In this document: positions 1,610-53,585 of the stretch, piece by piece | How the letters are laid out: every line of letters starts with the position of its first letter | Numbering within the stretch: position 1 is the first letter of the stretch | NCBI GenBank assembly: GCA_964036195.1 | Contig: CAXIWS010000620.1 | Span: forward strand, 28,743 to 92,742 | From: Sphaerolaimus hirsutus | Taxonomy: Eukaryota; Nematoda; Chromadorea; Monhysterida; Sphaerolaimidae | Length of the DNA: 64,000 bases | Reading direction: 5' to 3' | Position numbers and translations under genes: made by a program | Notes under the pieces: generated by a model | Told to the model about the DNA's origin: nothing | The model's database searches: none | Seen by the model: the letters and a program-made list of their open reading frames with translations, nothing else

Positions 1610-2750
1610 TAGCATTGAAAAAATCTCTGGGAGATTTATATTTAAAAAATCTCAGAAAATCTCAGAAAATATAAGATTTTCTGAGATTTATATTTTTTCC
1701 ATGATTTTCCAGAGAGATTTAATAATATTTTCTCTGATTGAGAAAATCTCTCAAGAAAATCTCTCTATACAACATGTGTGATGTATTGATTTTCAGCAAT
1801 GAGTGAATACTCAGCCAACAAAGCACAATAATTTTAACTGGTGGAAAGTGAAAATTTGGTGATAGTGAATATTTGCAGGGTGTTGAATTATTTTATGCAC
1901 CCCTTTTGGTAGTTTGTCCCCATTTTTTGAGCGTTTTCTTCCCCTTTTCCATTCTATGGCTTGAAAAAGCTTATATAAAAACTTATCGGAAAAACGTTTT
2001 CTGTACTTGTGTACTTTCAAAAAGTATACATAAAGGTGAGTACTGGTACTTTTTTCAAAGGAAATGTAAATGTATTTACTCAGTACTCAAGTATATGCAT
2101 GTTTGAGTAAATGTAAATATGTTTTAACAACGATGTTGACTGCATGCTTTGCTATAATTACCAAAATTTGGTGAAAAAAGTCATCTGCAAAACTCTGTTG
2201 GAATCATCACACCTGAAATTCATGAATATTCTATTATGAGGAAACATGTACCTAAATACTTTTATTATTTTTTCAGATGGTATATGGTAGAGAAAGAGTG
2301 CAAAATTGCAATTGCCATACCTAGGCAGGAATCGAACCTGTGCCTCTCGTATAGAACACGAGCGCCCTAACTGCCGGACTACTGTGTCGGCTTGGCTCTA
2401 GTCACTATATGGGCTGACAAGCTGCGACGATGGCAATGCCCTTAACAGTAGTACAAAGCTTGCTGTCAGTAGATAATGTGTTGATCAAATTGTTGATAAA
2501 AAACTTAAACAAAGCTCAAGCTTTTGCAACTAAAGTTAAAAAATTTAGCTTAAACTTGAAATACCAATTAAAACATAATTCAAGTTGAGAGATTTTCTGA
2601 GATTTTTTCTAACTGAAAGAGATTTTCTCAGAGATTTAATTATATTTTCTAAAATAACCCAAGAGATTTAATTATATTTTTTCCTTGAGAGATTTTCTGA
2701 GATAATATTTAATTATATTTTTTCAAAATTGGCCATTTTTTTCAATGCTA
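1610..2750. mobile_element. hAT-like MITE, family I (TAGCATTGAAAAA ends)
   Basis: Ends are TAGCATTGAAAAA and TTTTTTCAATGCTA. A perfect 8-bp TSD AGTGTGAT lies at 1602-1609 and 2751-2758. Subterminal regions reiterate GAGATTTTCTGAGATTT-type words. Fragments occur at 33098-33210 and 48505-48640. It holds a tRNA-like segment at 2315-2391. Confidence 0.8.
2315..2391 (-). repeat. tRNA-derived SINE head or tRNA pseudogene
   Basis: On the minus strand a cloverleaf-like stretch has a 5-bp anticodon stem (CTCGT/ACGAG) with a 7-nt loop reading TCT (Arg type), a D-arm-like region and a B box GGTTCGATTCC. The acceptor ends do not pair, so this is not a functional tRNA. An A-rich 3' tail toward 2275 suggests a short interspersed element. 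Confidence 0.55.
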
Positions 2751-5818: not shown

Positions 5819-6508
5819 AACAAATGAAAATTTCACATGTATTTCATAACTCACTGGACCCCTTAGAGTATTAGGAGGACCCTTAGGACCCTAAGGACCC
5901 CCTTAGCTCCATTTTTCCAATTTTAAATTTTTTTATCGATGTCCAACGTTTGTTCCTGGAGTGGCTATTGACTCGTGGATAACGATGGCAAAAAAAGATT
6001 CGAAAATTCGAAAATATTTAAGAATTTTCGAATTTTTTCAGTATTTTTGAATTTTTATTTCACCCCTGGAAAAACACTTAAAAATCGATTTATTTTTTAA
6101 AAAATTCGAAAATAGTTTTCGAATTTTTCAGGGAATTCAAGGTGACAAAACACAAAACACAACACTAAGTCCAGCGCGCTAAATAAAGCGACAATTGATA
6201 TGCGGTGGGTCTGAAAAAGTCTCATGTGACGAAAAAAAACAAACATTAAAAACATTGAAATGGCATCCGCGCGGCGGACTCAATCACATCCATTTGGGAG
6301 TGCACGGAGCTGCCCAAACAATTAGAACTGCGGCCCTCTACTTCAGCGGATACAGACTCCGTTCCATCAAAAAAACTGCTCGCGGGTCTTCTGACAAACG
6401 TTTTTTTGGAAGGCATTCAGCCCCAGCGAAAATGGTGGAAACTGATCCACATAAGTGTTTCTACCATTTGTCATGTTAAAGTGAAGTGAAATTGTCATTT
6501 CATGCTTC
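5819..6508. other. No gene; TTCGAAAA-word repeat
   Basis: From about 5982 a GATGGCAAA end leads into reiterated ATTCGAAAA words to about 6130, a family also seen at 18095-18245 and 33313-34017. No supported coding sequence. Confidence 0.4.
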
Positions 6509-6516
6509 ACTTACAG
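6509..6516. repeat. Outer TSD 'a' (ACTTACAG), left
   Basis: This 8-mer precedes MITE E1. The same 8-mer follows E2 at 18030-18037, 11.5 kb away, and does not follow E1. Confidence 0.85.
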
Positions 6517-6880
6517 CAATGGCGGCGTAAGTGCTTGGGCACTTGTGAATGTCACAAGCGGAATTTTTGGTGTCACAAGCAAAAAACTCACTGTCACATT
6601 GTGACATTCACAAGCGTGTATTGTACAAACGATAGTGAAAGCTCAAAGTCGCTAAAAATTTGCACTATTTTGACAATTTTCACCTTTATAATCACTATTT
6701 TCATCTATACACATGGTAATATGCCTATTTTTAGCTAATTTTATTAATATTTATAGCGATTTCAAATTTTTTGGCTGTCTGCCAACTTCACATAAGGGCT
6801 CTGATAAAAAGGTGTCACAAGGTGAAATTTTGGCTAATGTGAATGTCACAAACGCAAATTGGAACCTTGCGCCGCCTATG
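6517..6880. mobile_element. hAT-like MITE, family E, copy E1
   Basis: CAATGGCGGCGTAAG to CTTGCGCCGCCTATG, 364 bp. It is built from GTCACAAGC and GAATGTCAC words in both orientations. Same orientation as E2 and closely similar along its length. The left flank is ACTTACAG and the right flank GTGGCAAG, so its TSDs do not match. Confidence 0.85.
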
Positions 6881-6954
6881 GTGGCAAGGATGGCTCATTT
6901 TGCCATGTCCACTCAGCGCCCATGGACTCCACACCTGAGATGTTGATACATGAC

Positions 6955-7679
6955 CATAGGCGGCGTAAGTACCGGGTGGCCCACGTCAGGCGCACGGTTT
7001 TGATTGGCCCCCAACACATCAATTTTGAATGAAAACCGCTCGAATTTCGTATGGGGGTAAATAAATGTACCCCATTTGTTGTGTTAAGTGCACGGTTTCA
7101 TATCGCAATATTTCGTGTCAGAACGTGAAAGAGTTTCATATTTACGTTTTTCAAAAGTGTCCCATTGTAGATATTCCTGTGGAGTGACGTTGTTTTGCAT
7201 ACGATGTGATAAATGTGAAAATTTAGTGATATTTATGTGTGTGCTTAAACTACTAAATAGGGTACATTTATCTACTGTCATGCCAAATTTGGACTATTTT
7301 TATGAATAATTGGTGCTTTGGTATACGATTGCCTGACATGCGCCACGCTCAAACACGTATAAAACTTTGCTTCACGTTCTGACATGTATTTTTGTGATGT
7401 GGAACCGTGCACTTAACACAACAAATGGGGTACATTTATCTACCCCCATACCAAGCTTGAGCAGTTTTAATCCATAATTGACGTGTTGGGAGCCAATTGA
7501 AACCGTGCGCCTGACGTGGGCCACCCTATACTTGTGCGCTTGAGAATGTCACAAGCGGAATTTTCGGTGTCACAAGCAGAAATACCTATGTTTACCTAGT
7601 AAAAAGTGCACACGGTCAAATTTTGGCCAATGTGATTGTGAATGTCACAAGTACAAATTGGGACCTTGCGCCGTCTATG
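6955..7679. mobile_element. hAT-like MITE, family E, copy E3, interrupted
   Basis: CATAGGCGGCGTAAG to CTTGCGCCGTCTATG. Flanks TACATGAC and TACAGGGC agree at 6 of 8 bases, a plausible eroded TSD. It is interrupted by the TA element at 6972-7528. Confidence 0.7.
6972..7528. mobile_element. TA-flanked TIR element inside E3
   Basis: Inverted ends GGGTGGCCCACGTCAGGCGC and its complement, flanked by TA. The interior has a second inverted pair around GTTGTGTTAAGTGCACGGTT. No coding sequence. Confidence 0.7.
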
Positions 7680-7686
7680 TACAGGG

Positions 7687-8814
7687 CATTTTTTTTTATT
7701 AGCATGGTACGCACAAAACATATAATAAATTGCATTCACATTTTGTTTTTCAGCCACATTTGAAACACAAGTAACTCTTATTTTGTTGCTTTCTCAGCTA
7801 TGTTGCTATTCTTGGCGGCAGCACATTTAGCACGGAAACCTACCATACTCATCTGAATAATTAACCAAAAATTACAGTTTTTCATCGCAATATTTTGTTT
7901 GTTTTTTTACTATGGAATTACGAAATAAATCACAAGATTTTATTCATGACATCATGGTAGGATTCTGTGCTTACTTTGGGGTGCGCCGAGTATACAAACT
8001 AATGTGTTTAATTACCATTTTTCATTTCCAAGAACAAAATTTTCCTCTTTCTGTTTCTGATTTCCAGTCACTGTTTTTTAATTTCCATTTTTCCTGTCCA
8101 CTTTTTGTCTCAATTTTCTGTTCTCTGTTTAAACCTTTTTTAAACCATGTTGTTGTTTTTATGCAAATTTTTTGTGCTTCAAGCAAAATTTCTACACATT
8201 TTTTTCTGTTAAGGCAAACTTTCAGCAAATTTTTTTTCCAGCGAAGTTTTTACCATTTTTACCATTTTTGTGCAAATTTTGCTTTACATTTTCTGTTTTC
8301 CAGCATTCCATTTTCCGTTTTCCAGCATTCTGTTTTCTGTTTTACAGCATTCCATCTTTATGTTTTCCAGCAAGTGCAAAAAATACTTTTTACATTTTTG
8401 GCAACTAAAAAAACGTTTCCATTTTCATTTTCTGTGAAAAAGTTTTTTGACACACTACTACCAACAACTGTGGGCACTAACAAGCTTCTTTGGCAAATCC
8501 TCAAGTGGTCTTCAGGTTTATAAACTCAATAAACTATTCATTATACAAAATGGGAAAGTTAGGAAAGTTTATATCCTCTTATAACAGTGCCAAATTATCA
8601 ACAAAAATAGTTTCCACAACCCTGACACACAAAATCTGGGTCATCAAAAAACTCCTGTTAATAATTGCTTGCAAAAAACAACAACACGGAATATCTCTAT
8701 GATATCTTCACTAATTTTCAATTTAACTTTTATTTCGCAACTTTAGTACCTAAGATTGGTTAGATTTCACTTCTTTTCAGTTTCTTTGAGTTTCTTAAAT
8801 CTGATTTTTTAATG
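7687..8814. other. No gene; T-rich TTTTCCAGCATTCC-word repeat
   Basis: At 8020-8430 words such as TTTTCCAGCATTCC and TTTTCTGTTTTCCAGC recur. They match in reverse the sequence around 44340-44440 and resemble the family C interior. The 203-residue open frame at 7912-8523 is Phe-rich because of this and is not taken as a gene. Confidence 0.45.
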
Positions 8815-9257
8815 TACCGTATATCCTCGAATAAGACCCCCCCTCGAATAACTCCCCCCTTGAAAAACTCCCCCCTCAAAAACACTGACGAAAAAATAAC
8901 TCCCTCCCTCGAATAACTCCCCCCTCTTGAATAAGTCCCCCCTCTGGGTGAAAAATGTGCTATAAAATTTACAAAACTGATCGATGAAAATACAAAAGAA
9001 TGTTAACGTAAATATGGCAGCGACAGCAGATACATGACATGTACGCAGTGTATAAACACCTTTTTGTTGTTGTTGAACTGTAAAATACATGGATTACATG
9101 AGTTGACACAATGCATTCATACAATGAATTCAGTCCAAGTTTCTGAGGAAAAAATAACTCCCTCCCTTGAATAACTCCTCCCCCTTGAATAAGTCCCCCC
9201 TCAAAAACTCTGACGAAAAAAAAACTCCCCTGGGGTCTTATTCGAGGATATACGGTA
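8815..9257. mobile_element. TACCG/TA element, GAATAAGACCCC variant
   Basis: TACCGTATATCCTCGAATAA to its complement, TA at both ends, with C-tracts interspersed with CTCGAATAACTCC words. The interior differs from the main variant. Confidence 0.75.
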
Positions 9258-9321
9258 AATAAAAAAGAATGTGTTACTATTCTTTGGTAATGTGCTCTTA
9301 AGTTAGGGAGGCATTCAAAAC

Positions 9322-9624
9322 ATGCAGACACCTCCACAGAAAATCACTTGCAACGCCTTGAGTGTCAGTTGTACCACTTATAACCCAGAACCGGTCATTG
9401 TAGCTACATTACATGCCATAGCATCTTTCCTCTCAGTGATCATACTGGTGATTTTCTCCGGCCCAGTTGTACCAGTGTACCTGACAAATTTATTTGACAT
9501 TACTGTGCATAACAAACCTGACATAGATTTTATGCACAACAAACATGTCAGTTACTTTGCTGTTTGTTTATTGACCAAATGGATGGTGAAAATTCTGGAT
9601 TTGGGCAGTGGGGAGGATCTCTAA
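9322..9624 (+). other. Unassigned 100-codon open frame
   Basis: An ATG-started frame in sequence free of recognised repeats. It contains a hydrophobic stretch of about 20 residues near position 35-55 and no motif I recognise. It may be chance or an unrecognised exon. Nothing nearby supports it. Confidence 0.12.
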
Positions 9625-9638
9625 GTTGAGGGGTTACC

Positions 9639-10087
9639 CAGGGGTCTCCTAGGAAGGGGGATGGGGTCGATGCCCCCCCCCCCCAAATCCAACAGCTATC
9701 TATCTATCCCGGAGGCTGGTCAGCTATCTATCTATCCCGAGGCAAATTTTTTGGCTACTACCCCCAAAGACCCCCCCAAATCGCTCAGCTATGTATCTAT
9801 CTGGAATGGTCTTTGAGAAATTTTGCCCCAATTTTTGCTCAAAATCACTAATTTTCGCACCTTTTGAAAGTTTTTCACCTTCAAAATCATGCTTTCCGGC
9901 TATATACATGGTTATGTACCTATTTTTAGCCATTTTAAACCTGCTTTTGGCTACTTTTAACTGATTATTAGTGATTTATGCCCCCGCCAGCCCCCCCTTC
10001 AGAAAAATTTTCAGCTATCTATCCCTCCGGAGGAGCGATTTGCTATCTATCCAGCCCCCGTGAGGGCCAAAATCTTGGAGACCCCTG
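9639..10087. mobile_element. hAT-like MITE, family H (CAGGGGTCTCC), copy H1
   Basis: CAGGGGTCTCCTAG to CTTGGAGACCCCTG; perfect TSD GGGTTACC at 9631-9638 and 10088-10095. Arms carry CAGCTATCTATCTATCC and GGAGGAGCGATTTGC words. Confidence 0.9.
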
Positions 10088-10095
10088 GGGTTACC

Positions 10096-11069
10096 CCTAC
10101 CTAGTCCTCTTAGGGGCTCTTCCACAACTCAATATTGGTTGTCTTAAAGTCAGGTAGTATGGACAAGTGAAATTGGCAGCATACTCAAAAAGTTATGCTT
10201 GGCACCACTAACTGTGCCTTGGATTCAAACTCAAAGTGAAAGTTAAGTAAATGAACAAATTCCAATGTTCACTTGTGGTGCACATGGCACAATGAATTTT
10301 ATATTTTTGAGCTTAGCTTTCAAATGCTCACAGATTCAAGCCATTGATTCAACCCAAACTTTTTGTGAAGTACAGGTGACTTTTCATCAATGTGTCCCAT
10401 AAAGATCTTCTCACTTTTGATAATGATGTTGCATAGTGCTTAGAAAACACACCTGTAACAAGATGCTGTGACTTCAGCTGGGTATTTTAGCTTGCCACCA
10501 CACACAACCAAGTAGCCATTAAATACATCGGAGGATGCAAATTTCCTGTGTGAAAGTACCTATTATTTAGAAACAATATACCTTTTATCCTAAACAGAGC
10601 TATTCAGAAACAGTATATACCCTAATTGATTTTTCTTTGGGACATGGGTCTTCAAGTAAAGTGAATGTATTTTTCATAGATTTTCAGTCTCAGTGTTCTT
10701 GCAACCATTTACCAATTTATATTTGAGGGATTGTCAGACCCTGCCAGACCCACACAATTTTATTTTCATACCAGTGACTTTATGGTGACAACATTTTGCA
10801 CGTGAATGTAATTATTCAAGGTCAAGATCTTTCTTGCTTATTCAAGCATATTTTGCAGATATATATTTAATTGTCAACTGTCAAGTGGAAATACTTATCA
10901 ACAGGCAATGTTGTGAAGTGATCTTGGCCATCAGCAAGCAGAAAATTATTAACACATGACACTGTTCTAAAAAAATTGAGTTAAAAAAAACTATTCAGTT
11001 AAACGGCACAAACAATGAAAGGAACAGATTTGTGAAAATGTGATTATTTCTTATTCATAATATTTATCT
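10096..11069. other. No gene recognised
   Basis: About 1 kb of unique-looking AT-rich sequence without a convincing exon, RNA gene or repeat. Confidence 0.4.
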
Positions 11070-11498
11070 TACCGTATTACCTCGAAATACCCCCAGGGGG
11101 TTTATTATTTCGCCAGCAAAATTTGAGGGGGGGATAATTCGAGGGGGGGGTTTATTCGAGGGGGGGGTCTATTATTTCGCCAGAAATTTTCGGAAATTCC
11201 CCATACGCAGACGTAGAAAAATCGAACAATCACATAGATTTATATGTGTTTTTAGGCATATATTACTGTATATACACAAAAACCCTTCCCTAACGTCACT
11301 TAATCATCAGTTTTAACGTGTGTTCTGCATAGTACAGATCACAAACTGCGGTATTTGTCATGTACGTTCACGTTACACTCAATTTTAGGGGGGGGGGTAT
11401 TTCGAGGGGGGGGTTTATTATTTCCTCAGCCGAAATTTAGGGGGGTATTTCGAGGGGGGGTTAATTCAAGGGGGGGGATAATTCGAGGTAATACGGTA
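11070..11498. mobile_element. TACCG/TA C/G-tract element
   Basis: TACCGTATTACCTCGAAATA to TCGAGGTAATACGGTA, TA at both ends. G-tract words GGGGGTATTTCGAGG recur inside. Near-identical to the copy at 35138-35553, so the two are young or recently converted. Confidence 0.85.
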
Positions 11499-12904
11499 TA
11501 TTGTTTTTTCTTTAAAAAGCATCTGATTTGTTTACTTGTTTTATTACTATTGACATAAATGTTGTGTGTTTGGAAATGACCCAAATAGCATTGTGAAAAA
11601 AATTTTCTTGTTTGAAATTGTTGCATACATAGGTATTCATATTGGTGACGTATAACCAGCGGATAAGTTAGTGACATAATGATCATGGAACATTATCACT
11701 GGGCCAAAAACGATTCACATTGACCATTATCTTATTAAAAAGTTTGGATGTGAATAAAATCAACTGTGAGCTGAATGGAATCTGCCCATTCAGACTAGAA
11801 TGTGAGGCATAAATAAATATTAGGAATTTAGTCAAACAACATTATTGTAGTGTTCCATGTCCGCCGAGTTTACTAACAAATTTTTAATTTGCAGTTATTG
11901 GAATTTTACTAGAATGGACTCAGTTCATTTTAGGTTCGATTTGATGCAATTCAATATGCCTTTATATAGAATAGTGCATAATTTTGTTGTACAATAAAAA
12001 TTTCTGACAGGAAAAAATGCAGGAGGAAAAGTATAGGATGGAAAAGCAATCCAGGCAAGCTGCTGCTCTTGCCCGCTGAATATTATAATGTAAAACAATG
12101 CAATATCGCTATATATATTTACATAAAAATGCTATTAATCAAATGATATTGTTGAATAAAAATATCACACTGTTTCTATATGCTCTGCAGATGCAGAATG
12201 CAGAATAAATTGATATGTGCATAAATATGTGTACTGTGTAGGGATTTCTTCAAATCATTTTTTGAAAACGTTGTTAAATAAAAAGCACTTCAATTAAACA
12301 AAATTTAACAATTTTTTTTAAATAGCAGTCAAAATTTTTAGTATTGGTTTACTAGGTATTTCTGCATATAACTTCAAATACAGGTTAATATTGCAGGTTG
12401 TTTTCATAGGTATTGTTGAATTTTTAGTGACAAACCTCCCATTTCTGTATTTTACCATGCAATAACAAGATATGATATGTTTAGTAAATATATAAGGTCA
12501 GCAGATGTGATTCTGAAGTAAATATTAAATGTTTTTCTCAATGTATTAATCTTCTCTTCTAAGTTTACTAGAGCACTGTTCTGTGTCCAAATTCACTTGA
12601 AGTCATTGATGTTCACTAAATGGTGATAAATGCACCAAGTTAACATGGAAGTTTTGTAGACCACTTGAAATCATACCGTTAAAAGGCTCTACAGATATTA
12701 TTATTATGTTCTCAAAAGTTATGACAATACATTATAAATTATCTTATGTTTAATCATAACAATCTTAGTTTTGAGAAGAAGAAAATAAAAAAATATAAAA
12801 ACTGCCATGAATGAAAAAAGTTTTTTTCATTCCCTACTCAAGATTTTATTTAGCAAAACAATATTCCCCGTGATAATTATTTGAACATCTGGTGTGAAGT
12901 TTTG
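11499..12904. other. No gene recognised; upstream of ShKT gene
   Basis: AT-rich sequence with scattered AATAAA words and no coding signal. A right-end motif TGTCCGCCGAGT occurs near 11850. Confidence 0.35.
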
Positions 12905-12955
12905 TCCTTTATAACGCACTGGTCCACCGTTGGTGCAATCACCTGCTATAAACAT
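12905..12955 (+). promoter_or_regulatory. Candidate TATA-type promoter of ShKT gene
   Basis: TTTATAACGC near 12909 and GCTATAAACA near 12945 lie about 80 and 45 bases before the ATG at 12991. The second is well placed for a short 5' UTR. Sequence match only. Confidence 0.3.
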
Positions 12956-12990
12956 TAGTACCCAGAATATCTGCACACACATTTGGAAAC

Positions 12991-13029
12991 ATGAAGCTGT
13001 GGTGTGTCTTCCTTGTTCTGGCCATACTG
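12991..13029 (+). CDS. ShKT gene exon 1: signal peptide
   Basis: ATG followed by MKLWCVFLVLAIL, a short hydrophobic leader, then donor CTG|GTAAGC. Read without splicing, the frame meets TGA at 13105, so splicing is needed to reach the linker. Confidence 0.75.
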
Positions 13030-14773
13030 GTAAGCAGCAGCAAGTATTTCAATGTCTTTCTATCAGCTAGAATGCAAACTAAGCAGAATGTGGCACATCG
13101 CATTTGAACAGGTCTTCAGCCAATGCACATCAAACCACGAAGAAACTGGCAGAAATGACAATGAAGACAACGACAATGACCAGGAAGGTGGCAATGGCAA
13201 CCGAGGCAACCCCGACCAGCAAGGTGGAAATGGCAACCAAGGCAACCCTGACCAGCAAGGTGGCAATGGAAACCAAGGCAACCCCGACCAGCAAGGTGGA
13301 AATGGCAACCAAGGAGCTGCCAATGGAGAGCGTGGTTAACTATCTACCTCTATACCTGTTTACAATATTTTGTGCCTGTTTTTTAGATTTCAAAAAATTT
13401 CTGGTGAAATATTTACCACCCCTCCCCCTCGAATTACCCCCCCCCTCGAAATATCCCCCCTCAAAATTCTCACTCTGAAAAAATAAACTCCTGAGGGTAT
13501 TTGGAAGAAATACGGTATCTATCCAGGTAGCTGCTCAGCTATCTATCTACCCAAGTTGGCAATCTATATAGCCCTACCCCCCCCCAGAAAAATTGTCATC
13601 TATATATCCGACTCTGAAGTAGTGATATAAAAGGCACTGGGAAATATGGCACCGCACCGCATCGGCACCAGTGCCATTTTGAAAAAAGTAGCACTGGCAC
13701 CCTGGGGCACCAGCTGGCTACCGATGCTAGCACCGAAGGGACTGCACCTGATTGGAGCTTCCACAATGTTTATCGGGTATTTTCTTAGAGGCAGCACCTT
13801 CAGAACTGCATATTTCCATGAATTCTCTACCGATTGATACTCTCTTCTCTACCAATGTCAAATGATCAGAATGATGTGGCAATCACTTTATGAAGCAATT
13901 AGAATTATTACAAATGATAGCTCAAATATTGAATATGCTCCAATATACTAGTCACTGGTCACTATTATCTACTGACTGGGTTGGATGTTGTACTGAAATT
14001 TTTACTGACATAAATGTTCATAAACTGACAAAAAATTATGAACAAAGCTGATAAAAGCTCGCCCCCCAGCAAACGCTAAAAAATATCAAAAATGATGAAA
14101 CAAATGTAATATTTAAATGTAATATCTATTTAATATGAAAACAGCACAATTTTTGGTTCCTCTTCAGGAGGGTATGGCAGATTTCAAAGTATATTGTGAT
14201 GGGACATTTTTTTCCAAAATAGACTAAAACCATTTGGGTATACTGCTGCTCTTGTAAATATGAATAAGCGCATGCTGTGGACGTCATTTTACACCCTATG
14301 AAGACTCAGCCGGTGCCTTTCCTGGCATCTTTTCATTTGGCCCTGGTGATAGCACCTTTGGCACTGGCAAAAAAGGGCACTGCACCACACCCGCACTGGT
14401 GCTATTCTTTAAAAAATGGCACCAGCACCGGCAGGGCACCCTAAAAAAGGGCACCGCACCACACCATCACCGATGCTGGTGCCATTTGTTGCCCAGCACT
14501 GTTGTCAAAATGCTGGATCTTCATTAGTCATTAACAACAGAACTACCTTTTTTATTTTCACATTCATCATGAAATATGACTCTTTTGTGCATGTACTTGT
14601 GCATTTGTATACATATCATTCAGAGTTTGCACCTAAAGCACATATTTAATCCCAATCTTTGGTCAGGTGGCTGCAGGGACTACGCGAACTGGTGCGCCCC
14701 CAGGTTCAAGTCGTTCTGCAAGCCGGGCAAACACGCGTGGGAGTGGTGCAAGAAGATGTGTGGCAGATGCTAA
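12991..14773 (+). CDS. Secreted ShKT-domain peptide gene (three exons)
   Basis: Predicted secreted protein of about 122 residues from exons 12991-13029, 13112-13334 and 14667-14773. The order is a hydrophobic signal peptide, an acidic then Gly/Asn/Gln-rich linker with a 12-residue unit repeated about four times, and a C-terminal six-cysteine domain. The cysteine spacing, the Asp two residues after the first Cys and the ending CKKMCGRC match the ShKT family, found in cnidarian potassium-channel toxins and in many non-toxic secreted animal proteins and metalloproteases. Toxic activity cannot be inferred. Introns join in phase (0, then 1). No AATAAA was seen soon after the stop. The gene lies inside the exchanged-TSD composite block. 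Confidence 0.75.
13112..13334 (+). CDS. ShKT gene exon 2: acidic and GGNGNQGNPDQQ-repeat linker
   Basis: Acceptor TTTGAACAG|GTCTTC; intron 1 would be 82 bp. After about 25 residues rich in Asn, Asp and Glu come about four copies of GGNGNQGNPDQQ encoded by a 36-bp minisatellite. Donor G|GTTAAC is weak, but it leaves phase 1 as exon 3 needs; without it the frame stops at 13337. An acceptor a few bases further on cannot be excluded. Confidence 0.7.
13380..13618. mobile_element. TACCG-element right end and family H fragment in ShKT intron 2
   Basis: 13380-13517 is a right-end fragment of the TACCG/TA element (ends GAAGAAATACGGTA). 13518-13618 has family H words (CAGCTATCTATC). Confidence 0.5.
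13622..14495. repeat. GGCACC-word repeat element in ShKT intron 2
   Basis: GGCACCGCACC and GGCACCAGTGCC words are reiterated at 13640-13760 and, inverted, at 14310-14490, around an AT-rich middle. Same 'one word repeated' style as the hAT MITEs, but the termini are not certain. Confidence 0.4.
14667..14773 (+). CDS. ShKT gene exon 3: six-cysteine ShKT domain
   Basis: Acceptor CTTTGGTCAG|GTGGC. It encodes 34 residues plus TAA. Six cysteines are spaced C-x6-C-x7-C-x9-C-x3-C-x2-C, with the last Cys the final residue. Aromatic and basic residues lie between Cys 3 and Cys 4, as is common in the family. Confidence 0.8.
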
Positions 14774-15536
14774 GATGTGTACCCCCATCTAGCTGACTTT
14801 GGTGATGAATTACATGCTATTGTCAAATTGTCCTAATGTCATGCTGATGATTTCTGTCCATGATTGTATTTTGTTTTGATGCATGGTTATTCAAACGTTC
14901 TTCAGTAGACAATAGGAAAGTGATACTGATTGTAAGCAGTTGTTACAAGTACTGAACTTTTCAAAATGATGTGTACATGTGAATACCTTCATCTTTGCTC
15001 AGAAATGCATGGGTAAAGTACTTTTTTACCCAGTACTGTAAAAGTATTATTTTATTCATGTAAGTGTAAAATGAATTATTATATGGGTACTTGCATAAAT
15101 GTGTCTGCAAGTATTGTTCTAGGTTGTTTTTGGCATCTAGGTATGGAATTCAGTAGAAATTTTCAAACAAGAGAAAGAATTCATTTCACTGAGTGTAAAC
15201 AATGCAAATTTTTACAGGGGATAACATTTTAATTGAAACATGACAAATTTGTGTGTGACTGTACATAACAAGTCACAGGGTAGGAGATTGGCCCTGGGAG
15301 GCTGAAAATTTACCCTAGAATTGGTGTGGGAAGTGGGGTGCTTTAGAAGCCAAAATCGTAATGGCAGCACCATGCCATGTGTAAGTTCTCAGCCACGTTG
15401 TAAAGAAAGTGTAGGTATCAATGGCACCTTATTCACACACCTTATACATTACATAGGTAATTGTATATAGGTAATACTTGTATTTATCTATGCTTGCATT
15501 CTAAGAAAAATACATGTGAAAAAATATATTGGTAGA
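14774..15536. other. 3' flank of ShKT gene; family A remnant
   Basis: No gene. 14950-15110 has degenerate family A words (GTACTTTTTTACCC, AAGTGTAAAATG). The rest is unremarkable. Confidence 0.35.
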
Positions 15537-15674
15537 ATTGGGGGGGGGGTAAAATTGGGAGGGTAAAATTGGGAGGGTAAAATTGGGAGGGTAATTGGGA
15601 GGGTAAAATTGGGAGGGTAATTGGGAGGGTAATTGGGAGGGCAATTGGGAGGGTAATTGGGTGGGTAAAATTGG
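15537..15674. repeat. GGGAGGGTAAAATT minisatellite
   Basis: About ten copies of ATTGGGAGGGTAA with or without two extra A residues. G-runs of three recur every 10-14 bases on the plus strand, so quadruplex formation is possible. Confidence 0.8.
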
Positions 15675-16104
15675 GATCACGCATTTTTTTGTGATGTGTG
15701 TGGTAGCGCTGGCATGCTTGGTGAAGTGTTGGCATGAAGACACTTCCCAACACTTCACGGCGCATCCACACACCCATTTTTTGCTGTGAAAGTCACTACA
15801 GGTTACATTAGATGGTCAGTCACAGGGGGGGCTACAATTCCTTTTAAAAAATTTGTAAACAGATTCTCTCAGAGAATCAATCACTTCTCCATTCATTCAA
15901 TCGGCACCACAACCCTGTAGGATGTCGGCTTGACCATGAATGTATCCAAAAGTTGCCACTGCGCCTGCCCTCGCCCAGTCTCATTCAAAGCTTGGATACA
16001 ACTTGTTCAATCCCAGTTTCCATTGTCATCCATTTTGTCCCCATCAAACCAATATAGAGTGTTGTCTAAAATAACCATGCAACCTCTCCAACCAGTGGGC
16101 AGTC
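15675..16104. other. No gene recognised
   Basis: Mixed-composition sequence without a supported feature. Confidence 0.3.
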
Positions 16105-16240
16105 CCAGACCTTGTAAAATGCCCTGTAAAATGTCAAATGTCATGCAAAGTGTCAAAAGTCATGTAAAATGCCTGATAAATTGGCAAAGGTAAGTTTGAC
16201 TTTTGACACTTTGCATGACATTTGACATTTTACAGGGTCT
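16105..16240. repeat. Short palindromic element, family V
   Basis: AAATGTCAAATGTCATGC words and their complements form arms ending near CCTGTAAAATG and CATTTTACAGGG. Related sequence lies at 51535-51705 and 53700-54030. Confidence 0.5.
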
Positions 16241-16382
16241 GTGTCTCACCAAGGAGTAAGTTTCAGTATCCCATGCATTGGTTGTAGGATTGAACCTGTG
16301 TGAAATTTACTGGCACACATGGAGTTTCTACAGTTTTTTCATAGTACCAGATTTTTTCCGTGTAAACCACCCGGGTGTTATT

Positions 16383-16792
16383 CAGGGGTATTCTAGGTTT
16401 TGACCCTCCGGGGGGTTGGATGGATAGCAAATCGCTCCTCTGGAGGGTTAGGTAGCTGGAAATTTTTCTGGGGGGTTTGGTGGGGTTTGCGTGGGTTCAA
16501 TATATAGGCTTTTTCAGTGTAGAACAAAGAAAAGGGGGAATCTCGCTAAACGTAGGGGAAAAATAGCTCAAAATAGGTATATAAGAACATATACGACTAA
16601 AAATAGCTCAAAATAGGCAGTTAGACACGTGAACTATCGATTATGGATGTGAAAATCTATAAAAAGGTATGAAAATTAGCGATTTTGCGCAACAATATAT
16701 TGAAGTAGATAGATAGATAGCTGAGCAGCCTCCAGGATAGGTAGATAGCTGGGCAGATTGGGGGTAACCCCCCAACCCCATTCCTATCCCTG
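16383..16792. mobile_element. hAT-like MITE, family H, copy H3
   Basis: CAGGGGTATTCTAGG to CCTATCCCTG; flanks GTGTTATT and GTGTTATA match at 7 of 8. Contains GATAGATAGATAGCTGAG words. Confidence 0.75.
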
Positions 16793-17069
16793 GTGTTATA
16801 CAAAATTAACACACTTTTTAGCAACGTTTTTCAAAAATTGTATAACACCCAGGTGTTAGATCAATGTGGTGTTTTAGACGGAAACTTCACAAAACAAGCA
16901 AAACAGCTAAATATGGAGTGTAAAAGTGCCTCTGAGCTTTCATTTTCTATGAGCATCCCTACATGTTTTTTTGTTCCCCGTGTGTAGCTAATTCGAAGGA
17001 AAAATGTGCTTGTCACAGAATTGAAAGTGTGGCGCCAGGCACAATATTCAGACAGTTCAAATTGAGTAA

Positions 17070-17487
17070 GGCCGCGTTTACACGGATTTTTTTGTGACGA
17101 CTCGACAACATTTAAAAGTCCAATAAGTTGAGTAAAAAGATTCCATATTCATGAGAAGAAGTGGTCAACTATACATTCTCCCTAGGCGAAATGCATGTCA
17201 AATTGCAGAATCGTGCTTGCAGCTCAAGCGTTAAAGACGTTTGAAAACATTTTGCTGTTGTCGGAAGCTGTCGGACAGTCTCCCCACAGCTTCCGACAAC
17301 AGCAAAATGTTTCCAAACGTCTTTAACACCTGAACTTCAAGCACGATTCTGCAATTTGATATGCATATTCGCCTAAGGAGAATGTATAGTTGACCACTTC
17401 TTCTCATGAATATGGAATCTTTTTACTCAACTTATTGGACTTTTAAATGTTGTCGAGTCGTCACAAAAAATCCGTGTAAACGCGGCC
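17070..17487. mobile_element. PIF/Harbinger-like foldback MITE, copy K1
   Basis: A near-perfect palindrome of 418 bp with about 200-bp arms and a loop of about 10 bases. Ends GGCCGCGTTTACACGG and complement, flanked by TAA on both sides, the 3-bp TWA type of PIF/Harbinger. Copy K2 starts near 28313. Confidence 0.8.
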
Positions 17488-17658
17488 TAAATGTTTTTTA
17501 ACTAGATATAATGCTGTGTAACACCCTGGGTGTTGTGCACGGGGTTGGTTTACACAGAGAAATACAGTAAACTTACTTAATACAACTTTGGTACCCATCC
17601 CCACCACAAACTATCAACTGGCCTTTGTGCACTGCGCAGTTGCCATGTCTCCTGCTGT

Positions 17659-17666
17659 GTGGCAAG
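17659..17666. repeat. Inner TSD 'b' (GTGGCAAG), left of E2
   Basis: Identical to 6881-6888, the bases immediately right of E1. Confidence 0.85.
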
Positions 17667-18029
17667 CATAGGCGGTGTAAGTGCTTGGGCACTTGTGAAT
17701 GTCACAAGCAGAATTTTTGGTGTCACAAGCAGAATTTCACTGTCACATTGTGACATTCACAGGTGTGTATTGTGCAAACGAGAGTGAAAAGCTTAAAATT
17801 AGCTCAAAATTGCTAAAATTTGCTCCATTTTGCCAATTTTCACCTTTATAATCACTATTTTCATCCATATATTTACATGGTTATATACCTGATTTTTATT
17901 TATAGCGATTTCAAATTTTTTGGCTGTCTGCCAACTTCACATAAGGGCTCCGATAAAAAGGTGTCACAAGGTTAAATTTTGGGTAATGTGAATGTCACAA
18001 GCTCAAATTGGAACCTTGCGCCGCCTCTG
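17667..18029. mobile_element. hAT-like MITE, family E, copy E2
   Basis: CATAGGCGGTGTAAG to CTTGCGCCGCCTCTG, 363 bp, direct orientation relative to E1. Right flank is ACTTACAG, which pairs with the left flank of E1. Confidence 0.85.
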
Positions 18030-18037
18030 ACTTACAG

Positions 18038-18523
18038 TGAAATTAAGGTTAAAAGGGGCTCCAAACATGTCCAGTCCAAATACTGTGTTTAAAATCTTAA
18101 AAATTCGAAAATTGCCAAAAAGATTCGAAAATTCGAAAATTCAATTCGAAATTCGAAAATTAATTTGGGAAAAAAATTCAAAAATTCACTTTAGAAAAAA
18201 CACTTAAAAATTTAAGTACTTTTTTCTAGAAGGTTTGCCATCATTAGTAGTCAGGTGGTCACTTTTTTAGTGTTCACTGTCTGCAACCGAAACCATGAGG
18301 GCAGCGACAAGAAAGAAATGCATGCATGAGCGTACAAAAGCGCGACTTATGCGAGTAATCCGCCCGACAAAATAAAATAAAAAGCGAATTGGCAGGCGGC
18401 CAAGAAATGACGAAATAGTGATTTCCGGGCCAAAATCGAAGCAATATACGTCATATTGCAATATCGGCGACCTTAAGGGATGGTTTCGTATGTTTTACGA
18501 ACCGCCTTGCTCTGGGTGCATGT
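18038..18523. other. No gene; TTCGAAAA-word repeat
   Basis: 18095-18245 carries ATTCGAAAA words and ends GGTTTGCCATCATTA, possibly the other half of the element whose first half lies at 5982-6130, split by the 11.5-kb block. The outer flanks of that putative element do not match. Confidence 0.35.
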
Positions 18524-22915: not shown

Positions 22916-28099
<5,184 letters not shown>

Positions 28100-28312: not shown

Positions 28313-29075
28313 ACGCCGCGTTTACAGACTTTTTGTGACGACTCGACAACTCAAAAATATCCAATAAGCTGAGTAAAAATGTTCCATATTCATAAGAAAA
28401 AAGTGATCAACTATACATTCTACCTAGGCGAATTTGCATATCAAATTGCAGAATCGTGCTTGTAGCTCAAGAGTTTTTGCCGTTGGAAGAATTTTGCCAT
28501 TTTTCGCTGGTTGTCGCCAGCAGTCGGGTAACTGTCACTGTCAGACAACGGCAAAAATTTTCAAACATCTACCGTATTTCCTCGAAATACCCCCCCCCTT
28601 GAAATACCCCCCCCCCTCGTTTGACCCCCCCCCCCCTCTCGAGACCACTATGAAACAATCACCCCCCCCCTCGAAATACCCCCCCCCAAATTGAGTGTAA
28701 AGAGAACGTACATGACAAATACGGCAGTTGATGTTCTGCGTAGTGCAGAACACACGTTAAAACAATGTCGGAAGCACGTTAGAACAGTGTTTATACCATC
28801 TACGTACTAATATTAGTCTACAGAACCTTATAAATGGCAGTTTTTGTTGCATTTTTCGACGTCTGCGTACGTTTCAGACGACAATTTCGTACTTGGTTTT
28901 CAAAAATTTTCTTGTGAAACAATAACCCCCCCCCCCCTCGAAATACCCCCCCTCGTTTAACCCCCCCCCCCCTCTCGGGACCACTATGAAACAATCACCC
29001 CCCGGGGGGTATTTCGAGGAAATACGGTATAACTTAACTTTTGAGCTACGAGCACGATTCTGCAATCTGAACCAT
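28313..29075. mobile_element. PIF/Harbinger-like foldback MITE, copy K2, interrupted
   Basis: Begins GCCGCGTTTACAGAC. The arm matches K1 (GTGACGACTCGACAAC, CATATTCATAAGAA). The TACCG element at 28570-29029 interrupts it, and part of the opposite arm (GAGCTACGAGCACGATTCTGC) follows. The right terminus is degraded. Confidence 0.65.
28570..29029. mobile_element. TACCG/TA element inside K2
   Basis: TACCGTATTTCCTCGAAATA to its complement, TA flanks, C-tracts up to 14. Nearly identical in its interior to 33513-33913. Confidence 0.85.
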
Positions 29076-36826: not shown

Positions 36827-36834
36827 CCGCGGTG

Positions 36835-42074: not shown

Positions 42075-42865
42075 GTGGTTCTCTACAATTAATACCACAA
42101 GGATTTACAAACACAAAAAGAACAGCAAAACATAAACATAACCAATTAAAATTACAAAGTTTAACACCTTGCATAAACCACACTATCATATCACAAAACC
42201 TATACCACACAGAATGCACACTGCACACCATCATACCAAATTGCAAACTGTCCACATTTTACCATCGAGTTTCATGCCCAACCATTTTAAGGAACTATAC
42301 AAAAATCTATTCCAAAATATTGCATCTTTGGTATTGGTCTTGTTATTGTTGGTATTTACATTACATACCACATATCAAAATACATGGCTAGTATGTGGGC
42401 AACCTTAATTAGAGTGGTGTATTTCCTATAATATGGCTTAAAGTCTAGACTGGTGTCTTCGATGGAAAGGTGGGTAAAAAGTTGGTGAAAACATATATGG
42501 GTCCTCTGTCATTGGAGGAAATATGATACTTTAGTTAAGTTTGCCCACATGCTAGGCATGTGTTTCGAAATGCAGTATGTAATGTACCAACAATAACAAG
42601 ACCAATACCAAAGATGCAATGTTTTGGAATGGATTTTTGTAAACTTGGTTGGGCATGAAACTTGGTAGTAAAATGTGGACAGTTTGCGATTTGGTATGAT
42701 GGTGTGCAGTGTGCATTCTGTGTGGTATAGGTTTTGTGATATGATAGTGTGGTTTATGCAAGGTGTCAAACTTTGTTGTAATCTTAAATTGGTTACATTT
42801 GTGCTTTGCTGTTCTTTTTGTGTTTGTAAATCCTTGTGGTATTAATTGTAGAGAACCACAAAACC
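42075..42865. repeat. Large palindrome with ~325-bp arms
   Basis: Left arm GTTCTCTACAATTAATACCA..., right arm its complement ending at TTGTAGAGAACCACAAAACC. Spacer about 42400-42540. Both arms carry CATAAACCACACTATCATAT. It borders three minisatellites. Confidence 0.8.
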
Positions 42866-42879
42866 CACTTCTCAGAGGC

Positions 42880-43335
42880 TTGCAAAAACTGACACCCCAG
42901 TGGGGAGACCCTCCGAATGGCACCTCCCGGGGAACCCCCCAAAAATGGCAGACCCTGGGAACTGCCCAAAAATGGGACCCCCTAGGGACCCCACAGAAAT
43001 GGCACCCCCTGAGGACCACCAAAAAATGGCAACCCTTAGGTACCCCCAAAAAATGGCACCCCCCTAGGGACCCCCAAAAAATGGCACCCCCTGGGGACCC
43101 CCCAAACATGGCACCCCCTTGGAATCCCCACAAAAATGGCAGCCCCTGGGTACCCACCCAAAGATGGCCCCCCCTGGGGACTCTCCAAAAAATGGCACCC
43201 CCCTGGGGACCCCTCCCAAATGGCACCCCCAATTGACCCCCCCCCCCCAAAAAAAAATATATAGCACCCCCTGAGGAACACCAAGTAATGGTCCCCATGG
43301 GGACCACCCAAAAAATAGCACCCCATGGGGACCCC
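42880..43335. repeat. CCCCCAAAAATGGCACCCCCTGGGGA minisatellite
   Basis: About 16 diverged copies of a 25-30-bp unit with CCAAAAAATGGCA and CCCTGGGGACC words. Confidence 0.85.
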
Positions 43336-43344
43336 CTCTAAATC

Positions 43345-43627
43345 CTGTAAATGCAGCCCCTAGTTTGGAAACTCCTGTAAACTCAGCCCCTAATTTGGAA
43401 ACTCCCATAAACTCAGCCCCTAATTTGGAAACTTCCATAAACTGAGCCCCTAATTTGGAAACCCCTGTAAACTCAGCCCCTAACTTGCAAACTCCCGTAA
43501 ACTCAGCCCCTAACTTGCAAACTCCCTTAAACTCAGCCCCTAATTTGGAAACTACCACAAACTCAGCCCCTAATTTGGAAACTCCCATAAACTCAGTCCC
43601 TAATTTGGAAACCCCTGTAAACTCATT
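43345..43627. repeat. 30-bp minisatellite (AAACTCAGCCCCTAATTTGG)
   Basis: Nine to ten copies of a 30-bp unit in register, open on the minus strand as a 10-residue repeat (GVSKLGAEFT/M) and on the plus strand as ETPVNSAPNL. A 196-codon minus frame at 43064-43654 runs through it. Confidence 0.9.
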
Positions 43628-43629
43628 TT

Positions 43630-44092
43630 CAGGTTTATGGTAATGTAGTGTCAAAATTGAATGAATATTTCAAATCATCGCTATCATCAATCCACAAATG
43701 CATCAATTCACAATTTTCAATTTTTTAGCCCTGGGGGTTAGACTTAAAGGTTATGGTAATGTAGAGTAAAAATGGAGTGCACATCTCAAATCACTGCAAT
43801 AAAAAACCCACAAATGCATCATTTCACAAATTGAAAGTTTTTGGGCCCAGGGGTTCATTATCAGGGTTTTAGTAATGCGGTGTCAAAATGGAGTGCATAT
43901 TTGAAATCGCTACAATCAGAAACCCACAAATGCATCATTTAATGATTTGAAAATTTTTGGCCCTGGAGGTTCATCTTCAGGGTTATGGTAATGTAGTGTC
44001 AAAATGAAGTGCATATTTCAAATCAAGGCAATCAAAAAGCCACAAATGCATCATTTCACAATTTCTAATTTATTAGTCCCAGGGGTCCCGGT
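43630..44092. repeat. Four tandem ~118-bp repeats
   Basis: Each begins near TTATGGTAATGTAGTGTCAA, has CCACAAATGCATCATTTCAC in the middle and ends near a CCCAGGGGTT box. Confidence 0.85.
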
Positions 44093-51829: not shown

Positions 51830-53585
51830 CCGTCATTCCTCAAATTACCCCCCGGGGTTTATTTTTTCAGAGTGGAACTTTTGAGGGGGGGGGGGGGGGT
51901 TTAAACGAGGGGGGTATTTCGAGGGGGGTAATTATTTCGTCAGAAATTTTTCGAAATCCCAGTACTAAAATGCAACAAAAACCGCCATTTATAACACTCT
52001 ATGGACTTATATATGTAAACACCTTCCCGGTCAGGTCCGGCACCCTATTTTTGTTTTCACTATGGACGTCCTATCTCCCGCTGCAGGCGGGGTAGAAAGC
52101 TAAAAATCGGGGGGCATATACTTGTAACCCCCCTCAACACCGAATCAATGGGAGGCGCCATGGCGACCCACTACAGGGTGGGTAGCCATATATGCAGGAT
52201 TTTTGGGGGCATTTTCAGTGTCCCACACAGGTCCGGCACCCATCTCATTTCATTACACTACGGGTGCTGTACCTCCAGCTGTGTGGGGGGTAGAGAGCTG
52301 AAATTTGGGGTGAGTTTAACCCACATTCCCCTCTACTGTACACCAGTGGGGTGACTGTCGGCGACTTACTATAGTGCCGTTTTCTGCATTTTAGTTTTTG
52401 AAAAAATCAAAGTGTCATATTTCGGTCCGGCAACCATCTGTGTTTTTTATGAGGTCGCAATAGCCGCCATGAGTGAAATTTTGCAATAGAAGACTTGAGC
52501 GAACCTCATACAAAGCTTTATTTTTTCAAAACATTTCAATTTATTAAAAAAACAATCCCAATCCTGTGGCCGCAATGCTGTACCAAATCCCAAATCCAGA
52601 AAATTATCAATGAACTAGTCACTTGAAATAATGATTTATGGTGATTTACAGGGGAGGGTTCAGGGTTTCAGGTTGCGTAAAGAACATGACCTTTAAAATG
52701 TATCCTTTACAAAATTTACTTGGGGTCAATTTTTTGATGTCATAATGACATCATTGCAGGAACAAAATTTGACAAAAACATAACTTTTAAATGTACCCTA
52801 AGTAAATTTGGTGAAGGATGCATTTTAAAGGCTATGTTCTTTACACAACCTTGAACCTTGAACACTCCTCTGTAAGTCACTGTAAATACACATTTCAAGT
52901 GTCTAATAAAAAAGTTGCCAAAAGTCAATTTTTTGTCAGACAGTTAGGATGGTGGTGGGATCTGTAGGGATTTTTTTAAACAAACTTGAAATGCAGTGGT
53001 CAACCCTATAGTGAGTAGCTGGCGGACGCCCGCCAGTTTATAGTAGGATAGAGGTGTTGGCTACACTCCCCCCAAATTTCAGCTCTCTAACCCCCACCTA
53101 GCTGAAGGTACGGCACCCATAGTGTAACGAAATCCGATGGGTGCCGGAACTTTGTGGGACACCGAAAAAGCCGGAAAAAAACTTGGCATATACGGCGACC
53201 CACCCTGTAGTGAGTCGCGGTAGGCTCCCCCATTGATGTGGCATAGGGGGAGGTTATAACTATATAACCGCGCATATTCAGTGTTCTACCACCCGCGCAG
53301 CGGGAGTAAAGGCAACCGAAGTGAAATCAAAAATCGGGTGCCGGACCTGACCGGGAAGGTGTTTACATAGACAGTATATACCCGGTTATAACATAACACA
53401 GTCAACTGTTTTTAACATGTGTTCTGCGTTTCCTGGATCACAAACCGCATTACGTTCTCTATACAGTAAATTGGGGGGGGGTTATAAGTTCATAGTGCCC
53501 ATTTTGAGGGGGGGTATTTCGAGGGGGGGGGTATTTCGAGGGGGGGGGTATTTCGAGGGGGGGGATATTTCGAGGAAATAAGGTA
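51828..53585. mobile_element. Composite foldback TA element U2
   Basis: Begins TACCGTCATTCCTCAAATTA and ends TTTCGAGGAAATAAGGTA. Same plan as U1: G/C-tract ends, arms of tandem units (52020-52350 and 52980-53350), inner palindrome 52620-52880. Unit boxes differ from U1 (GGTCCGGCACCC replaces AAGTTCACCACCC). Confidence 0.8.

Follow-up and report, generated by a model that had tools for sequence, protein, structure and literature searches.

The stretch of DNA analyzed here (the window) is 64,000 nucleotides of the nematode Sphaerolaimus hirsutus, positions 28,743 to 92,742 of contig CAXIWS010000620.1 in assembly GCA_964036195.1. Within it, two copies of a hAT-like miniature inverted-repeat transposable element (MITE), called E1 and E2, bound a block of about 11 kb, and the whole lies inside a copy of a dispersed host repeat, T. 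An earlier note, made from the sequence alone, had claimed that the target-site duplications (TSDs) of the two copies are exchanged. This is exactly borne out: one 8-bp sequence, ACTTACAG (site a), stands on the two outer sides, and another, GTGGCAAG (site b), on the two inner sides. The arrangement is as follows.

5980..6516, + strand: left part of host repeat T, up to and including the first copy of a; with the block left out, the joined flanks align in one piece with dispersed T copies
6509..6516, + strand: site a, first copy, ACTTACAG; single in 11/11 empty T copies read
6517..6880 (364 bp), + strand: E1, hAT-like MITE copy, ends CAATGGCGGC ... GCCGCCTATG
6881..6888, + strand: site b, first copy, GTGGCAAG; single at 3 related loci
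6889..10979, + strand: segment B (after b in the order taken as ancestral), nested insertions included; corresponds to C3:27887197-27880395, minus strand, in pieces
10980..10987, + strand: join of B to A, an 8-nt filler, GTTAAAAA
10988..17658, + strand: segment A (before b in the order taken as ancestral), nested insertions included; corresponds to C3:27895532-27887187, minus strand, in pieces
17659..17666, + strand: site b, second copy, GTGGCAAG
17667..18029 (363 bp), + strand: E2, hAT-like MITE copy, ends CATAGGCGGT ... GCCGCCTCTG
18030..18037, + strand: site a, second copy, ACTTACAG
18038..18246, + strand: right part of host repeat T, by the same joined-flank alignment

E1 and E2 are both on the + strand, thus in direct orientation, with 84.3% identity (BLAST). 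The element has short CA...TG terminal inverted repeats (CATAGGCGGC / GCCGCCTATG ends), which we take to suit hAT. The own flanks of E1, and likewise those of E2, agree at 2 of 8 positions, whereas crosswise they agree at 8 of 8. On the + strand of the window, ACTTACAG occurs only at 6509 and 18030 and GTGGCAAG only at 6881 and 17659; each is also found once on the - strand, at 52870 and 10491, respectively. By our own arithmetic, with uniform bases, two independent 8-mer identities have a probability of about 4^-16, in keeping with the earlier judgment that chance is very unlikely. The exchange is real and unusually clean.

That this family makes 8-bp TSDs had been argued from one intact copy in the window, E4, which does carry CCGCGGTG on both sides (at 36827 and 37002), and it holds for nearly all other copies read. 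A search with E1 gave 40 other matches, the best 40 of 2728 candidates; a partial match, C1:23750083-23750384, was dropped, and the other 39 were read with a tolerance of up to 3 bases at the element ends. Of these, 37 have their own matching TSD at 7 to 8 of 8 positions, counting one copy interrupted by an insert (L006) by its true ends rather than by its automatic reading of 6/8. The remaining two match at 6/8 (L059) and 3/8 (L058). Because mismatched copies are rare, a reciprocal pair is not expected by chance.

At the landing site, when the block is removed, the outer flanks rejoin into T, and 39 of 39 other scored copies of T cross the junction in one match. At base level, 11 of 11 T copies read have a single ACTTACAG, so the uninterrupted site that the earlier note had proposed to look for exists. 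Since T copies run unbroken across the junction with one ACTTACAG, the entire E1-block-E2 unit is flanked by one clean 8-bp duplication within a T copy. No second copy resembling this contig around a was found among the scored T candidates, the best of which have 86% identity.

The inner site tells a matching story at other loci. The search for relatives of the block scored the best 39 of 44282 candidates, and further members of this locus family may have been missed. At three loci, two on C3 and one on C503, the right inner flank of the window runs straight into the left inner flank, with one GTGGCAAG and without E; this is the donor-like arrangement suggested earlier as a check, in which the sequence left of 17659 leads directly into that right of 6881. 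The site is uninterrupted at 3/3 fetched related loci that span b, while those at C1:27.45 Mb and C3:28.28 Mb stop short of it. One C3 locus, here called C3b (C3:27880395-27895532, minus strand), is complete and reads as window 10988-17669 followed by 6881-10979, with insertions interrupting on both sides. The block in the window is thus a circular permutation of C3b.

C3b is a relative of the donor rather than the donor itself. Substitutions between the block and its relatives amount to 298/7913 (3.8%) for C3b, 199/5204 (3.8%) for the locus at C3:27.43 Mb, and 198/5092 (3.9%) for that on C503. Near b the window differs less from C3:27.43 Mb (4/179 and 5/317) than from C3b (12/175), and the true donor may therefore be mosaic or a different member of the family.

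A search across the join of B to A, with window 10500-11060, returned five candidates, all scored: the window itself, two separated pieces of C3b, and two C1 loci. Only in the window do both sides of the join match; each of the other four has just one of them. Both C1 loci continue through the left breakpoint as C3b does (...TACAGCTG, then AAACTATTC in C3b or ACTATTC in the C1 loci). Because they carry the same sequence across this breakpoint, the order in C3b is ancestral there and at b, and the join in the window is derived. The reverse possibility, that C3b is the derived copy, is ruled out by the same two loci, which have its left boundary. GAAAC stands at both C3b breakpoints, and the window reads AAATTGA, GTTAAAAA, AAACTATTC; with GAAAC at both donor breaks and an 8-nt filler, the closing join is of the microhomology or short-indel type. 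The filler resembles CAGTTAAAC, just inside segment A, a likeness that could come from templated end joining.

A separate question is whether E1 and E2 descend from one copy at the time of the event. They differ by 28/347 substitutions (8.1%), compared with the 3.8% between block and C3b (Fisher test, p 3e-4 against C3b and 6e-4 against C3:27.43 Mb). Other alignments give 34/347 (26 copies), 9.5% (38 copies), and 26/343 (BLAST, without the first four bases). Gap openings number five in 343 aligned bases between E1 and E2, against 6.7 per kb in the block. Relatives that differ from the block by 3.8% have an empty b, so an E arriving there afterwards and doubled by the event would be expected to show a divergence of no more than about that amount. 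E1 and E2 were therefore probably two different copies before the event, and cointegrate, sister-chromatid, and tandem-donor models, which need identical copies at that time, appear disfavored because the divergence of the pair exceeds that of the block. Within the family, where mean pairwise divergence is 10.8%, the pair is ordinary, at the 17.6th percentile of 703 pairs. The search with E2 does not place E1 in its best 40 of 2372 candidates, nor does the search with E1 place E2 in its best 40; among eight loci compared, E1 ranks third for E2.

The element ends differ in preservation as well. The outer termini carry substitutions at positions kept in nearly all copies: E1 begins CAATGG, while others begin as CATAGG, with T as third base in 25/26 and A as fourth in 26/26, and the third base from the right end of E2 is C, found in 0/38 other copies. 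The inner termini, next to b, are canonical except for one base of E2. The numbers are small, but the pattern would fit an older copy at T (E_a) and a better preserved copy at the donor (E_b).

Recombination at two different MITE copies is the likely class of mechanism. Within that class we tentatively prefer, while holding it slightly more doubtful than probable, an account in which a circle carrying E_b recombined with the resident E_a at T. E_a would have inserted into the T copy at ACTTACAG as an ordinary insertion, and E_b at GTGGCAAG in a copy of the locus family, of which the locus at C3:27.88 Mb is the most complete member found. About 10 kb around E_b would then have been circularized through end joining of what are now positions 10979 and 10988. 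Finally, the circle would have recombined with E_a through E-E homology; a single crossover would open it inside E_b and yield a-E-b-B-A-b-E-a, as seen. The two target sites, their single empty counterparts, the permuted order, the derived join, and the greater divergence of E1 and E2 relative to the block are shown; the circular intermediate and a homologous crossover as the join to T are what we infer. In all, the route takes two plain insertions, one end joining, and a single crossover. The earlier note had proposed two routes. Integration of a circle into an E copy is supported by the predicted junction, by the permutation of the C3 locus, and by the derived join, which among the five candidates scored was seen in the window alone; transposition from a tandem donor is disfavored, given the divergence of E1 and E2 relative to that of the block.

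Several points weigh against the circle. The crossover would have acted on 364 bp of about 90% identity. The divergence argument presupposes that E and the block change at similar rates and that neither E1 nor E2 later underwent gene conversion. A donor with E at b was not found among the best 39 of the 44282 candidates, and the three loci that span b are without E. In addition, three tests, from whose alignments L006 was left out owing to its insert, gave no direct sign that E1 and E2 are chimeric. In a nearest-neighbor swap test the best change was -1, equaled by 0.37 of 300 null pairs, and swaps in mid-element worsened the fit by up to 5. A scan of private mutations placed the best break at column 73 (20 versus 6, p 0.14). 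The shared low-divergence tract was equaled by 118/703 pairs, or by 78/435 of similar total divergence. An impression from 26 copies that the right thirds of E1 and E2 are unusually alike did not hold with 38 copies.

Two other routes that the earlier note had not raised also give this pattern, the first being repair without a circle. A break in E_a, with both ends invading E_b and copying outwards until the new ends were joined with filler, would give the same product from one event, and the resemblance of the filler to CAGTTAAAC inside A would suit templated end joining at that step. Nevertheless, we consider this unlikely: long tracts must be copied on both sides (4.1 kb of B and 6.7 kb of A, as present lengths), GAAAC at both donor breakpoints is not required, and chimerism of E1 and E2 would be expected here too, with no direct sign of it in the three tests.

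Quite unlikely, and placed just after it, is alternative transposition of the type known from maize, in which a transposase would have taken the inner ends of a pair of E copies, present together at b, for insertion at a during replication, the re-replicated flanks then being end joined. The composite insertions made by maize Ac/fAc, as described in PMC4270019, are bounded by transposon termini, contain segmental duplications, carry 8-bp TSDs, and show 4-bp, 3-bp, or no microhomology at their internal joins. The window resembles them in that transposon copies bound duplications of two flanks joined inside, with an 8-bp outer TSD, and in size (14 to 24 kb for the four sized in that account, against 11.5 kb here); non-identical E copies would be allowed if the donor held a pair. 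In maize, however, the donor pair is known and active (PMC4270019), whereas in the window the inner flanks make up a single TSD pair, which points to one site b, and a donor pair did not turn up at the related loci spanning it. A composite of two E copies at b would be needed, yet 3/3 related loci that span b are without any E, and a re-replication event would be needed besides. The ends required, E1 left and E2 right, are the altered ones, although they may have changed later. If a single E on sister chromatids had served instead, E1 and E2 would have started out identical, contrary to their divergence.

Two further explanations we regard as very improbable. In macrotransposition from a tandemly duplicated donor with the same E in each unit, one TSD pair would flank the outer E ends, as it does; however, two copies at b made by duplication should be nearly identical and E1 and E2 are too different, no second unit is present in the 8.4 and 6.5 kb read beside C3b, and the B-A join occurs at no other locus among the five candidates scored. 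Misassembly, scarcely to be expected either, is suggested by the small contig (C523, 92,742 bp, in an assembly where ten contigs of 24-34 Mb make up about 289 of the 348 Mb), but E1 and E2 are too dissimilar to stem from a repeat-collapse join, the B-A join lies outside E, and a perfect restored TSD inside T would be an unexpected outcome of a mis-join. Order and orientation, in our reading, rule out both inversion and simple unequal crossing-over.

Other features of the block bear on what it carries.

6955..7679, + strand: E3, another element with the same terminal motif; flanks TACATGAC/TACAGGGC match at 6/8
13034..13336, + strand: open frame rich in G, N, and Q (GNQGNPDQQ-like repeats); full-length match at 3/5 related loci, partial at one
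14573..14770, + strand: open frame of 66 aa, its cysteine pattern similar to that of ShK-type domains; no interruption at 4/5 related loci

E3 is a longer element, 66 bp right of the first b copy, and the three loci spanning that place are without it. The genes that the earlier note ascribed to the block are at most putative. Related loci preserve some short open frames, but they preserve an antisense frame (12830-13048) equally well, at 4/5, and two other frames hit a stop in one relative each. Ten block frames and one further frame gave no Pfam match above threshold. The best for the GNQ-rich frame was a sub-threshold match to Collagen (E 0.24); the 66-aa frame, whose ShK label is our assumption, had no Pfam match, none in a protein search, and a weak PDB match to aurelin (E 0.88). 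Elsewhere in the window are an open frame at 24592-25140 (- strand) with a sub-threshold Pfam match to SPC25 (E 0.0047), side-by-side tandem arrays at 42855-44086 with units of about 27, 30, and 116 bp, and a marginal tRNA-like Rfam match at 2323-2383 (- strand; 29.4 bits, against a gathering score of 29).

Some other copies of E are unusual in their own right. L058 (C7:2672789-2673162) is full length with unmatched flanks, CTAACCGG on the left and CGCGTTCA on the right, and may be a recombination product. Two copies on C4 (L005 at 19.83 Mb and L046 at 20.03 Mb) have an identical imperfect TSD, GCCAACAG/GCCCACAG, which suggests a segmental duplication carrying E. The TSD CTGAGTGC, with an A before it, is common to copies at C14:3.80 Mb (L004) and C2:19.71 Mb (L006), while their other flanks differ. 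At C1:27448828-27451256 (L028), three direct E copies or pieces alternate with fragments of another repeat in what resembles a small tandem array.

Precedents exist for parts of this arrangement. Circle-mediated human segmental duplications (cSDPs) change order from A-B/C-D to B-A/D-C (Chicote et al. 2020, PMC7450558). The window shows the same change relative to the ancestral locus and, as in that description, microhomology or short indels at the closing join. Its authors found no breakpoint homology or inverted repeats that would explain circle formation by recombination or transposon-like mobilization, although most breakpoints lie in non-homologous repeats (PMC7450558). In the window, by contrast, the opening and integration points are both at copies of one MITE, each marked by TSDs, and E stands at both ends of the block. 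The ancestral segments of cSDPs are given as 22 to 3918 kb (PMC7450558), against about 11 kb here. In Drosophila buzzatii, the evidence for ectopic recombination between transposon copies behind the Galileo-mediated inversion 2z3 is that TSDs are exchanged and that each target is present once at the uninverted sites (PMC2775673). The window has both exchanged TSDs and single targets at empty sites, but the Galileo copies, as described, are opposite and chimeric and the product is an inversion (PMC2775673), whereas here the copies are direct, the product is an insertion, and chimerism is unproven. Each ingredient is thus known already; the combination is new. Among the papers listed by searches of open-license literature, none describes it in its title or the opening of its abstract, which does not prove its absence.

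The case suggests that recombination at small elements such as MITEs can relocate stretches of host DNA. Whether a non-autonomous, hAT-like MITE family moves host DNA as a matter of course, whether by natural composite insertions or by the integration of circles at copies of its own, is a broader claim that we think doubtful at present. If it were true, the high-copy scatter of E (40 other close copies listed, and >2,000 candidates at first look) would form a network of landing sites for excised host segments. The window is a natural case, resolved to the base, in which the TSDs of a cut-and-paste element mark where a displaced segment was opened and where it landed. With both points so marked, a relocation route already under discussion, in which excised DNA lands through homology in a dispersed repeat, becomes testable within one genome.

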